DNA from: Caulobacter sp.
Lineage (GTDB): Bacteria > Pseudomonadota > Alphaproteobacteria > Caulobacterales > Caulobacteraceae
Direction: 5' to 3'
DNA length: 51,104 bases
Assembly (NCBI GenBank): GCA_028291265.1
Contig: JAQGIK010000085.1
Location: 1-51,104 of the forward strand
The number at the start of each line of letters is the position of its first letter. Position 1 is the first letter of the stretch. Positions 16,998 through 20,797 of this stretch are shown here, in pieces. The position numbers and the translations under genes are program-made. The notes below the pieces were generated by a model, which saw only the letters and a program-made list of their open reading frames with translations, searched no databases and was not told the origin of the DNA.

Positions 16998-18434
16998 TCA
17001 AGCCGCCAGCTTCCAAGCCAGAGCCAGATCCTCGACCAGCGCCGCGAAGCCCTCGGCCTTGGCTCTGGCGTCCGGCACGCGCAGCAGGAACGACGGGTGA
17101 TAGGTCACCACCCCCTGCGCCTGATCGTCCAGCTGGATCGCCCGCCCCCGGTTGGCCTTGATCGGCGTCGCCCTGCCGAACACCGCCTGCGCCGCCGTCG
17201 CCCCCAGCGCCACAATCACCCGCGGCCGGATCAGCCGGCGCTCCGAATCCAGCCACCAGCGACAGGCTACGATCTCGGGGGTCACCGGCGTCTTGTGGAT
17301 GCGCCGCTTGCCGCGCAGCTCATGCTTGAAGTGCTTCACGGCGTTGGTGACGTAGGTCTCCTCACGCGGCACGCCGGCCTTTTCAAGCGCCTGGTTGAAC
17401 ACCTGACCGGCCGGCCCGACGAAGGGGCGCCCGGCCAGGTCCTCCTGGTCGCCGGGCTGTTCGCCGACGAACATCAGCCTGGCCAGCGCCGCGCCCTCGC
17501 CCGGCACGCCCTGCGTCGCGTCCTTCCACAGGTCGCAGCGCCGGCAGCCATCGACGCCGGCGACCAGTTCCTCCAGCGACCTCGGCTGCCCCTCGCCGAA
17601 CGGCGCATCGCGGGCGGCGGCGCGGGCCGCCTTGATGGCGTGACGGGCGGGTTGGGTCGGTGCGGATGCGACCATGGCGGCGGTCCTTTCCCCGGCGGTG
17701 GCGATCAGGTCAGGAATGAGCCGGGCCTCGGGAAGGTTGCGCCAGTAGCGCTTGGGCATCTCGGCCTGCATGGCCTTCACCTTCAGCCGGGCCGGGTTGA
17801 AGATCGAGGCGTAGTAGGTGCGCCAATAGTCCTCCAGCACATCGTCGGCCGGCGCCTGGTCGCGGGAAACCCCGGCCGAAAAGCTCAGCGCCTCGCCGTC
17901 CCAGTGACAGCAGAGGTCGGGGGTCAGGATCGAGAACAGCATGCCGGTGAACCGCCGCACGAAGAATCCCGAGGTCCTTTCGACGACGAAGTGGGCCGGT
18001 TCGAACCAGGCGGCAAAGGCCTCCGGCTCCAACCCCTCGATGCGCCGGAAGCGGACGAAGGCCTTCATCTTGTGGCTGGCGCGGGAGACGTTTTTGGCCA
18101 TCTCCCGGGCCCGGGCGACGTCGGGGTCGGTGATGTCGAGCATCAGGGTCTGCTCCCGCTCGAACCGCCAGAGCAGGCGATAGAGCAGATCGAACCGCTC
18201 GCCGTCGCGATGGCAGATAACCTCCTCCGCCAGGTCGACGAAGGCCCGCGGCGTGCGGAAGCCCGGCCCCGCGGGCGGCCCATCCTCGACACCGGCCGGT
18301 TCCGCGAACAGGTCGCCCTCCCCCGCCACCGCCCAGACCACCGCGTTCGGCTCGACGCCCCGCAACCGCAGCGACCGCGCCGCCCGCCGCCAGCCCTCGA
18401 AATCGGTCGGCCCCTGCAGCCGCACCAGGTTCAC
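16998..18434 (-). CDS. UdgX-type uracil-DNA binding protein with N-terminal DUF4130-like domain
   Basis: The 478-residue protein is a fusion. Residues 1 to about 245 match the TIGR03915 (DUF4130) repair-associated domain. From about 285 it is a UDG-superfamily domain: cluster motif GCRRC at 296-300, GEQPGDQEDLAGRPFVGPAG at 324-343, and the diagnostic UdgX loop KRRIH at 376-380. In characterised UdgX that histidine (here His380) forms a covalent bond with the sugar after uracil excision. A histidine (His368 in NAVKHFK) stands where family-4 enzymes have a cluster cysteine; Cys391 follows. The GTG start overlaps the stop of the radical SAM gene (GTGA). Confidence 0.9.
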   Translation of the reverse strand: MNLVRLQGPTDFEGWRRAARSLRLRGVEPNAVVWAVAGEGDLFAEPAGVEDGPPAGPGFRTPRAFVDLAEEVICHRDGERFDLLYRLLWRFEREQTLMLDITDPDVARAREMAKNVSRASHKMKAFVRFRRIEGLEPEAFAAWFEPAHFVVERTSGFFVRRFTGMLFSILTPDLCCHWDGEALSFSAGVSRDQAPADDVLEDYWRTYYASIFNPARLKVKAMQAEMPKRYWRNLPEARLIPDLIATAGERTAAMVASAPTQPARHAIKAARAAARDAPFGEGQPRSLEELVAGVDGCRRCDLWKDATQGVPGEGAALARLMFVGEQPGDQEDLAGRPFVGPAGQVFNQALEKAGVPREETYVTNAVKHFKHELRGKRRIHKTPVTPEIVACRWWLDSERRLIRPRVIVALGATAAQAVFGRATPIKANRGRAIQLDDQAQGVVTYHPSFLLRVPDARAKAEGFAALVEDLALAWKLAA

Positions 18435-19651
18435 AGCAGCCTCGGCTGTTCGGGGGCCACCTGGGCGCGCAGGTCGAGCCGGTCGGTCAGCGACCCCGGC
18501 GACCAGTCCTCGGCGACGATGAAGGGCTTCACCTTCTCGACGCCGCGCGCCAGCCGTTTGACGTCCTCCAGTCGCAGCCGCTTCTGCCGGCGCAGGGCGA
18601 TCATCCGGTCGACCGTTTTCACGCCCAGCCCCGGCGTCCGCAGCAGCGCCTCCCGGTCGGCCCTGTTCACATCGACGGGGAAGTCCTCGCGGTGGGCTAG
18701 GGCCCAGGCCAGCTTGGGGTCGATGGCCAGGTCGAGGTTGCCCTGGTCGCCGACGATCTCCTCGCGCTCGAAGCCGTAGAACCGCATCAGCCAGTCGGCC
18801 TGGTACAGCCGGTGCTCGCGCAACAGCGGCGGCCGCTCGAGCGGCAGGCTGCGCGACGAGTCTGGGATCGGGCTGAAGGCCGAATAGTAGACCCGCCTCA
18901 GGCCATAGCCGCCGTATAGCCGGGCGCTGCGATTGAGGATCTCGCCGTCGCTGCAGGCGTCCGCTCCGATAATCAGCTGCGTCGACTGCCCGGCCGGCGC
19001 GAATTTCGGCGGCCGGGTCTTGCGGCCCTTTTCCCGGCCCTCGTCGATGGCCAGCCGCACGCCGCCCATCGCCTTCTTGATCACCCGCACGTCCTTCTGC
19101 GGGGCCAGGGCCGTCAGGCTGGCGTCGCTCGGCAGCTCGATATTGATCGACACCCGGTCCGCATAGAGGCCCGCCTCCAGCACCAGGGCCGGTGAGGCCT
19201 CCGGGATCAGCTTGAGATGGATGTAGCCGCGAAAATCGTGGTCGAGCCGAAGCGACTTGGCGACCCGCACCATCTCTTCCAGCGTGTAGTCGCCCGACTT
19301 GATGATGCCCGAGGAGAGGAACAGCCCCTCGATATAATTGCGCTTGTAGAAGCCGAGCGTCAGGTCGACGACCTCCTGCACCGTGAACCGCGCCCGGGCC
19401 ACGTTCGAGGACACCCGGTTGATGCAGTAGGCGCAGTCATAGATGCAGAAGTTGGTCAGCAGAATCTTCAGCAGGCTGATGCACCGCCCGTCCGGCGCAT
19501 AGGCGTGGCAGATGCCCATCCCCTCGGTCGACCCCACCCCCTTGCCGCCAACCGAGTCACGCTTGCTCGACCCCGACGAGGCGCAGGAGGCGTCGTACTT
19601 CGCGGCGTCGGAGAGGATGGAGAGTTTACGCTTGAGATCGAGCACGGCCAT
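18431..19651 (-). CDS. Putative DNA modification/repair radical SAM protein
   Basis: The 406-residue protein carries a radical SAM cluster motif CIYDCAYC (Cys69, Cys73, Cys76) and belongs to the TIGR03916 group, regularly found next to TIGR03915 proteins. The C-terminal part has a helix-hairpin-helix DNA-binding segment (LLRTPGLGVKTVDRMIAL, near residues 337-354). The reaction is not established; a link to damaged-DNA processing is inferred from the HhH domain, the UdgX partner and the LexA box 15 bases upstream of ATG 19651. It overlaps the UdgX gene by four bases. Additional cysteines before the motif (Cys23, Cys48, Cys57) could matter for folding or a second cluster. Confidence 0.9.
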   Translation of the reverse strand: MAVLDLKRKLSILSDAAKYDASCASSGSSKRDSVGGKGVGSTEGMGICHAYAPDGRCISLLKILLTNFCIYDCAYCINRVSSNVARARFTVQEVVDLTLGFYKRNYIEGLFLSSGIIKSGDYTLEEMVRVAKSLRLDHDFRGYIHLKLIPEASPALVLEAGLYADRVSINIELPSDASLTALAPQKDVRVIKKAMGGVRLAIDEGREKGRKTRPPKFAPAGQSTQLIIGADACSDGEILNRSARLYGGYGLRRVYYSAFSPIPDSSRSLPLERPPLLREHRLYQADWLMRFYGFEREEIVGDQGNLDLAIDPKLAWALAHREDFPVDVNRADREALLRTPGLGVKTVDRMIALRRQKRLRLEDVKRLARGVEKVKPFIVAEDWSPGSLTDRLDLRAQVAPEQPRLL

Positions 19652-19665
19652 GAACCGTGTCTAAT

Positions 19666-19680
19666 GTTCTCTTTTTGTTC
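19666..19680 (+). promoter_or_regulatory. LexA (SOS) box, alphaproteobacterial type
   Basis: GTTCTCTTTTTGTTC is a perfect GTTC-N7-GTTC direct repeat, the LexA operator of alphaproteobacteria. It sits 15 bases upstream of the radical SAM start on the minus strand and about 60 bases upstream of the transglutaminase-like gene on the plus strand. The repair genes are the obvious target. Confidence 0.8.
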
Positions 19681-19742
19681 TGTCGATGCCCTTCCCGCGA
19701 AAAGTGTTTGGAACCAAAGGCTTCGCGCGCGGTTTCGCCCCT

Positions 19743-20612
19743 GTGACGCGCCTCATGATCCAGCACGAGACCCGCTACCGCTATGAAAAGCCGGTGGCGT
19801 TCGGACCGCAGCGCCTGCTGCTGCGGCCCCGCGACAGCCATGGGCTGAAGGTCGAGCAGGCCTCGTTGGCGGTCGGCCCGCCGGGCGCCATCCGCTGGAC
19901 CTACGACGCCTACAGCAACTGCGTTTGCTGGTTCACGCCCCAGGGCGAGGCGAACGAACTGGCCATTATCAGCCAGCTGGTCATCGAGCGCTTCCCGGCG
20001 CCGCTACTGCCCTTCCAGCCGGACAATCCGCACACGGCGATGCCGATCCTCTACAGCCGCGACGACCGCGCCGCCCTGGCCCCCTTCATCGTCCCCGACA
20101 CCGAGGACGACCCGAGCGTCACCGCCTGGCTGAAGGCCCAGATGGACCACCCGGGCGAGCCGGCCCTCGACTTCCTGCTGCGCATGAACCGGTCCATCGA
20201 CGCCTTCGCCTACAAGGCCCGCTACGAGGAAGGCGTGCAGACGCCGGCTGAGACTTTGGCGACCCGCGCCGGCACCTGCCGCGACTTCGCCTGGCTGATG
20301 GTCGAGGTGCTGCGCCGGGCCGGCTATGCGGCCCGTTTCGTCACCGGCTACCTGCACAGCCCGGCCGCCACCCTGCGCGGGGCCGGCGCCACCCATGCCT
20401 GGTGCGAGGTCTTCCTGCCCGACCTCGGCTGGACCGAGTTCGACCCGACCAACGGCCTGGCCGAATCGCCCGACCTGATCCCCGTCGCCGTCAGCCGCAC
20501 GCCGCGCGAGGCCGCCCCGGTCAGTGGAACCCTGATCGGCGATCCGGGGAAGCGAGAGCTCAGCGTCAATGTCACCGTTTCGGCCGCCGAAGACCTGGCG
20601 GCGGCCGCCTGA
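19743..20612 (+). CDS. Transglutaminase-like cysteine protease family protein
   Basis: With the GTG at 19743 the protein has 289 residues. It has the N-terminal beta domain of bacterial transglutaminase-like proteins (IQHETRYRYEKPV, RDSHG) and the core with the triad Cys179 in AGTCRDFAWL, His218 in GATHAWCEVF and Asp234 in EFDPTNG. Such proteins may cleave or cross-link peptides; no substrate is known, and no signal peptide is present. The start is uncertain: GTG 19743, ATG 19755 and ATG 19686 are in frame. I avoid the last because codons 19686-19720 look non-coding. The gene is divergent from the SOS-controlled repair operon. Confidence 0.85.
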   Translation: MTRLMIQHETRYRYEKPVAFGPQRLLLRPRDSHGLKVEQASLAVGPPGAIRWTYDAYSNCVCWFTPQGEANELAIISQLVIERFPAPLLPFQPDNPHTAMPILYSRDDRAALAPFIVPDTEDDPSVTAWLKAQMDHPGEPALDFLLRMNRSIDAFAYKARYEEGVQTPAETLATRAGTCRDFAWLMVEVLRRAGYAARFVTGYLHSPAATLRGAGATHAWCEVFLPDLGWTEFDPTNGLAESPDLIPVAVSRTPREAAPVSGTLIGDPGKRELSVNVTVSAAEDLAAAA

Positions 20613-20650: not shown

Positions 20651-20797
20651 ATGACCTCGAATTTCCAGCAGCAGGAACCGTCTTGGAGCAGCGCCTTCTG
20701 CAAGTCGGCTCCCGAACCGCAGCACGGCCAGAAGGCCGAGAAGAGCGCCGCTAAAAAGGACGACAAACCCGTCCCCAAACGCCGCCCGGCCCACTGA
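20651..20797 (+). CDS. Small basic protein of 48 residues, unknown
   Basis: An ATG at 20651, nine bases after GGGAG, opens a 48-codon frame ending at TGA 20797. The product begins MTSNFQQQEPSWSSAF, has one cysteine, and ends in a Lys/Arg/Pro-rich tail (AAKKDDKPVPKRRPAH). Third codon positions are mostly G or C, as in neighbouring genes. It looks soluble and disordered. I recognise no family. It lies 38 bases after the transglutaminase-like gene in the same direction and may be read with it. Confidence 0.5.
   Translation: MTSNFQQQEPSWSSAFCKSAPEPQHGQKAEKSAAKKDDKPVPKRRPAH

Follow-up and report, generated by a model that had tools for sequence, protein, structure and literature searches.

In the stretch of Caulobacter sp. 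DNA analyzed here (51,104 nucleotides, nt, of contig JAQGIK010000085.1; hereafter the window), a GTTC-N7-GTTC box at 19666..19680 stands in front of two overlapping genes, which we read, with a probability of roughly 0.7, as a LexA-repressed operon forming a DNA-repair module, with a radical S-adenosylmethionine (SAM) enzyme and a DUF4130 protein as its core and the uracil-DNA glycosylase (UDG) domain UdgX as an add-on. The first gene (18431..19651, minus strand) encodes a 406-residue radical SAM protein of the family TIGR03916, which we take to be COG4277 (551.8 bits against a curated cut-off of 343.5), and the second (16998..18434, minus strand, GTG start) encodes a 478-residue protein that family profiles identify as a DUF4130–UdgX fusion. 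The box itself is very likely a working LexA operator, and a repair module built on the radical SAM–DUF4130 pair is likely.

On the plus strand the box reads GTTCTCTTTTTGTTC, and toward the radical SAM gene it reads GAACAAAAAGAGAAC; the match to the pattern is exact, and GTTC-N7-GTTC is the Caulobacter LexA consensus (Table 1 of PMC9578287). Fourteen bases separate the box from the radical SAM ATG; a first-pass annotation of the window had rightly reported the box and put it 15 bases upstream, a figure that includes the first base of the codon. On the window alone, a functionless chance match in a 4.3-Mb genome would be a fair explanation, as the single exact match found compares with 0.81 expected and at least one match occurred in 57 of 100 shuffles; the motif by itself, within the window, is no proof beyond chance. 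The genome as a whole contains 83 exact boxes and 52 matches to a reversed control pattern, a background that also lends chance some credit, and the complete relative G018 contains 98 exact boxes versus 28 matches to the control. The significance of the box lies in its conservation in relatives and not in window statistics, and it is this conservation that rules the chance match out, leaving it a probability close to nil.

The genus search covered 61 genomes, including the one that holds the window, and returned a TIGR03916 match in 37 of them, one of which (G022) is a fragment without the gene start. The exact box is present in all 36 remaining loci, the window's own included, at −29 or −30 from the ATG; absence of the box from close relatives that keep the gene pair, the finding that the first-pass annotation had named as speaking against its proposal, was thus not encountered. 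Beyond the genus, an exact box lies within 300 nt in 102 of 104 further alphaproteobacterial loci (24 from a class-wide sample and 80 named loci) and in 43 of 43 more taken from a phylum-wide sample. Once five duplicates and one locus truncated at a contig end are set aside, GTTC-N7-GTTC lies at most 150 nt upstream of the chosen start in 174 of 177 distinct alphaproteobacterial TIGR03916 loci, a count of loci related by descent and hence not of independent events, whereas each other spacing of the two GTTC halves from N3 to N12 occurs in only one to three of the 177. Outside the promoter, the same loci contain 33 boxes in 1,185,198 nt, or 0.004 per 150 nt. One of the three non-matches (L066) has a broken frame, and its box is visible from the right start. 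In an alignment of 35 genus loci, which leaves out L066, the eight core bases are 100% conserved and the spacer 78%, as compared with an average of 56% for the 25 bases upstream, and the distance from the box to the radical SAM ATG is constant at 14–15 nt.

This fixed distance also bears on the gene that lies on the other side of the box, a divergent transglutaminase-like gene (19755..20612, plus strand; identified from Pfam domains), which the operator might serve alone or in addition to the radical SAM gene. The box does lie in the intergenic region common to both genes, 74 bases before the likely ATG of the transglutaminase-like gene at 19755, and toward that gene it reads as GTTC. Among the 36 boxed genus loci, however, a transglutaminase is the divergent neighbor in only 11, which indicates that the box follows the radical SAM gene, and a homologue was found in the flank of only 14 of 211 loci (flanks mostly 1.5 kb). 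The transglutaminase-like gene is ruled out as the main target of the box on the strength of the neighbor count, and any role for the operator on that side is very improbable, so that the gene is probably not a box target. A short putative open reading frame (48 codons plus stop, read from the sequence) follows it at 20651–20797 on the plus strand.

In the other classes of the phylum, GTTC-N7-GTTC is found in none of 29 loci (150 nt upstream). Instead, the promoters of 24 of the 29 contain CTGT-N8-VCAG, ending in ACAG in 19 and in CCAG in five, a pattern that fits the LexA consensus of E. coli and P. aeruginosa (Table 1 of PMC9578287); a slightly wider CTGT/ACAG-type pattern has 31 sites in the 121,283 nt of those 29 loci, promoter sites included. 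The presence of this site in 24 of the 29 loci indicates that LexA-type control has been kept while the operator differs between classes. Together with the conservation of the box and its placement between −35-like and −10-like elements, this different LexA-type site backs the first-pass annotation in its identification of the box as the alphaproteobacterial SOS operator.

The company that the box keeps elsewhere in the genome was surveyed descriptively: 64 loci representing 65 of the other 82 boxes were taken, adjacent open reading frames were viewed at 30, and proteins were scanned beside 19, picked mostly for AT-rich spacers. Boxes lie upstream of recA (L081), ssb (L076), radA (L023), and recQ (L079), upstream of a Mg-chelatase gene (L073) that is presumably ComM-like, upstream of an ImuA-like gene (L004; score below the family cut-off), and at the start of an RmuC-like gene (L021; also below cut-off), the chosen start of which overlaps the box. 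Others of the 19 stand by genes without an obvious link to repair (ParD antitoxin, glyoxalase, and PEP mutase, for example) or without an assigned family. Four DUF559 genes are boxed near the chosen start (L020, L074, L075, and L077) and may constitute a boxed DUF559 group; the start of L074 overlaps its box, and the L020 frame has start codons before the box as well. One further radical SAM gene (L071, G000:C117, around 20364–20378) belongs to the PA0069 family (NF033668, 502.8 bits; cut-off 360) and is preceded by an exact box, 23 nt from its likely start. The genome thus contains radical SAM genes of two different families with a box each. We had considered whether the radical SAM gene of the window is the counterpart of P. 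aeruginosa PA0069, which we take to be LexA-regulated; this candidate was rejected, as the separate NCBIfam PA0069 family matches L071 instead. A limited search of the open-licence literature found no paper joining PA0069, LexA, and P. aeruginosa.

Several observations weigh against LexA control of the operon. Two alphaproteobacterial loci, L104 and L169, lack an exact box. In the other classes, the CTGT-type site is missing in five of the 29 loci (L210, L239, L251, L258, and L262), three of which (L239, L251, and L262) form one group of the tree with UDG, and among UDG-fused loci outside the class it is present in seven of 10. No lexA match was found in the draft genome that holds the window, which is 94.4% complete; lexA is present in five of five relatives, each time with a box just upstream.

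The placement of the box suggests how repression could work. A −35-like element, TCGACA (19681..19686, minus strand), is predicted directly upstream of the box, and a −10-like element, ATTAGA (19660..19665, minus strand), directly after it, with 8 nt between the latter and the radical SAM ATG; the −35-like call was made by comparison with the sigma consensus. In the 35 aligned genus loci, a T six bases before the box is invariant and the rest of the −35-like element is variable, and T and A at box positions +17 and +18 are invariant. We surveyed the layout in 164 alphaproteobacterial loci with a GAAC-oriented box (duplicates included, starts chosen by script). In 84 of them the box ends at most 6 nt before the start codon and the spacer is itself −10-like, being ATATAGT in 15 and a related AT-rich string in most others; in 74 of the 84, the positions tested contain no Shine–Dalgarno-like string. 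In a further 63, which include the window, the gap between box and ATG is 12–16 nt with TA just after the box, and the remaining 17 have other distances between box and start. Either of the two main layouts would have transcription begin at the ATG or within a few nt of it, and we therefore predict leaderless mRNAs for both. Leaderless mRNAs are common in Caulobacter, where PMC4117421 reports 375 mapped examples.

At the other end of the radical SAM gene, the minus-strand sequence GTGA (18431..18434, read from 18434 to 18431) joins the two genes, the TGA stop of the first sharing bases with the GTG start of the second, as the first-pass annotation had noted. This overlap likely couples translation of the two genes, and in 132 of 178 alphaproteobacterial loci (duplicates included, starts script-chosen) the second gene begins no later than the radical SAM gene ends. 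In three loci (L109, L242, and L266), the two genes are not adjacent, the DUF4130 gene following the radical SAM gene at a distance of over 550 nt. Homologues of the radical SAM gene are also present in 158 plasmid records, 142 of which are predicted to be non-mobilizable, with Phaeobacter (58), Paracoccus (15), Azospirillum (11), Leisingera (10), and Agrobacterium (9) as hosts, among others.

The second protein combines two domains in one chain. Its DUF4130 domain comprises residues 79–236 (17727..18200, minus strand; 129.8 bits against a Pfam cut-off of 27), within a TIGR03915 match that spans residues 9–237 (203.7 bits), and its UdgX domain (TIGR03914) comprises residues 239–472 (17019..17720, minus strand). 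UdgX is defined in PMC10359453 by a GEQPG motif A, an R-loop with R107 and H109, and a motif B with HPS. All three signatures are present in the window's protein, as GEQPG at 324, KRRIH at 376–380, and HPSFLLR at 446. Across 138 fused proteins, 133 have both GEQPG and KxRxH, and 134 match a relaxed R-loop pattern; a stricter first pattern had missed 31, most of which have KxRxH. Among the four outside the relaxed pattern, L237 and L257 still have RKH, L260 is degenerate, and L225 is apparently frame-shifted. These last two, each with an impaired UDG half behind DUF4130, suggest that UdgX can decay in place. The predicted structure of the fusion has a confidence (predicted local distance difference test, pLDDT) of 92.6, and matches to its UDG half took up the results of the structure searches.

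DUF4130, which forms the N-terminal half of the second protein, is the radical SAM enzyme's constant partner, and UdgX is optional. By flank homology, DUF4130 is present in 206 of 212 loci and UDG in 175, some flanks being truncated. Among 385 genomes sampled from the class, 25 have DUF4130 and 25 have TIGR03916 above the cut-off, and both are present in 24 of the 26 genomes with either. One exception to the pairing, G105, has a radical SAM gene that runs off the contig; in G242 (L125), DUF4130 stands beside a radical SAM match below the cut-off, at profile positions 270–399. UDG is absent from 26 loci with a closed DUF4130 frame near the radical SAM gene, of which 24 are boxed (16 of 17 outside the class and eight of nine within it). 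A radical SAM tree of 87 rows requires nine or more changes of the UDG label, six of them forced by well-supported branches, in a quick method that leaves the direction of the changes open. The UDG-less loci that keep the box, the repeated changes of UDG, and the decay in L260 lead us to regard UdgX as an add-on. What the first-pass annotation described as a radical SAM–UdgX pair therefore stands as a two-gene operon, with the partner redefined as a DUF4130–UdgX fusion in which DUF4130 is the constant half.

These data also bear on the converse arrangement, in which the operon centers functionally on UdgX, with the radical SAM enzyme in a servicing role, for example releasing the UdgX–DNA cross-link or maturing UdgX. 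Such a service would have an obvious use, given that M. smegmatis UdgX bonds covalently with DNA (PMC10359453), a bond that needs resolving, and both proteins are produced from one overlapping operon. A servicing enzyme does not, however, account for the 26 closed loci in which DUF4130 is present without UDG, 24 of them boxed, nor for L260, in which the fused UDG has lost motif A and the R-loop and yet the radical SAM gene, DUF4130, and the box remain; we consider a UdgX-centered operon unlikely. The first-pass annotation had called the chemistry of the pair not established, which holds for the radical SAM and DUF4130 proteins and does not hold for the UdgX half, for which the covalent chemistry is known from M. 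smegmatis (PMC10359453).

The radical SAM protein has a CX3CX2C motif, with cysteines at residues 69, 73, and 76, and three further conserved cysteines at residues 23, 48, and 57. Each of the six is kept in at least 211 of 212 radical SAM proteins (duplicates included), which suggests a second Fe–S cluster, likely on Cys23, Cys48, and Cys57. Radical SAM enzymes known to have an extra cluster, lipoyl synthase among them, are thus close comparisons. Lipoyl synthase has an N-terminal CX4CX5C auxiliary-cluster motif; the extra cysteines of the window's protein, at 23, 48, and 57, do not follow this spacing, and the two proteins have the barrel fold alone in common. A stretch at about residues 324–355 resembles a helix-hairpin-helix, and the protein may thus have a DNA-binding tail. 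Neither feature is favored by every result: the model of the protein has a pLDDT below 50 at residues 23–50 and gives no support for the geometry of a second cluster, RuvA matches to the helix-hairpin-helix-like stretch reach only E values of 0.14–0.3, and the Pfam helix-hairpin-helix PF12836 was found on one of the 120 relatives listed.

Aravind et al. (2013; PMC3765255) labeled the enzyme SplB-like, and the label would imply direct reversal of UV dimers in the manner of spore photoproduct lyase. The protein scores as TIGR03916, however, and L071, the PA0069-family radical SAM gene with a box of its own, is a separate gene of the genome. Lipoyl synthase and HydE head the fold matches listed for the radical SAM model, followed by biotin synthase among others; spore photoproduct lyase was not found among the best 50 matches listed of either search, lists that do not exclude a lyase. 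Direct reversal also leaves the three extra conserved cysteines unexplained. A lyase of this kind is improbable in our estimation, if somewhat less so than a module centered on UdgX.

Under the SOS response, damage-activated RecA causes LexA to cleave itself. In the LexA-repressed operon that we favor, LexA bound between the −35-like and −10-like elements would block RNA polymerase, and DNA damage would lead, through RecA-driven cleavage of LexA, to an operon mRNA starting at or next to the ATG. The GTGA overlap would then couple translation of the radical SAM and DUF4130–UdgX proteins. The radical SAM enzyme and DUF4130 would act jointly on a damaged base or an abasic site. In operons that have it, UdgX would remove uracil and attach itself covalently to the resulting abasic site, which would be held for processing. 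The fullest version of this proposal, an unrecognized SOS-driven, radical-based DNA repair pathway of Proteobacteria that repairs or remodels a damaged base or abasic site by means of a radical SAM enzyme with two clusters, a DNA-binding tail, and an obligate DUF4130 partner, and in which UdgX is an interchangeable trap that has repeatedly been gained and lost and LexA control has been kept despite a change of operator, is put forward tentatively and at well below even odds.

SOS control of the radical SAM–UdgX operon is largely known already, because PMC8565304 (Nucleic Acids Res 2021) states that SOS regulation of a UDG-based COG1573–COG4277 operon had been reported in Alphaproteobacteria and Verrucomicrobia, citing a 2008 study of the Caulobacter SOS regulon for the former, and itself predicts SOS control of COG1573–COG4277 under both Bacteroidetes motifs. 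That work treats the same two-gene operon as UDG-based base excision, whereas here DUF4130 is constant and UDG optional. DUF4130 had already been tied to radical SAM and UDG genes by Aravind et al. (2013; PMC3765255), whose SplB label departs from our assignment to TIGR03916 and whose text, in the parts available, has no operator analysis of these genes. The available parts of PMC8565304 and PMC3765255 contain no account of the obligate DUF4130 pairing, the loss of UDG with retention of the box, the CTGT-type sites in other classes, or the predicted leaderless layout. The solved chains of M. smegmatis UdgX (PDB 6ajo, 8iie, and others) are UDG domains of 205–229 residues, unlike the UdgX of the window, which follows DUF4130 in a fusion protein and shares its operon with a radical SAM gene. 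For C. crescentus, PMC1839093 names four UDG-family genes and, in the text available, does not mention the word radical; the accessible portions of PMC4211646 and PMC13384398 yielded nothing on these genes, and those of PMC10776899 nothing on operon context. Within a limited search of the open-licence literature, we found no paper joining UdgX with radical SAM and none joining alphaproteobacteria, LexA, and GTTCN7GTTC, and a single paper each for COG4277 and for DUF4130.

The present analysis replaces a guess from a single site with a quantified case for SOS control that extends across classes, and it points biochemistry at the radical SAM–DUF4130 pair. If this pair is the core of the module, the role of the radical SAM enzyme could be tested in systems that naturally lack UdgX. 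PMC8565304 describes SplB, a radical SAM protein of DNA repair, as under SOS regulation in several species; another radical SAM repair pathway, with a different chemistry and also under LexA, would be new if shown.

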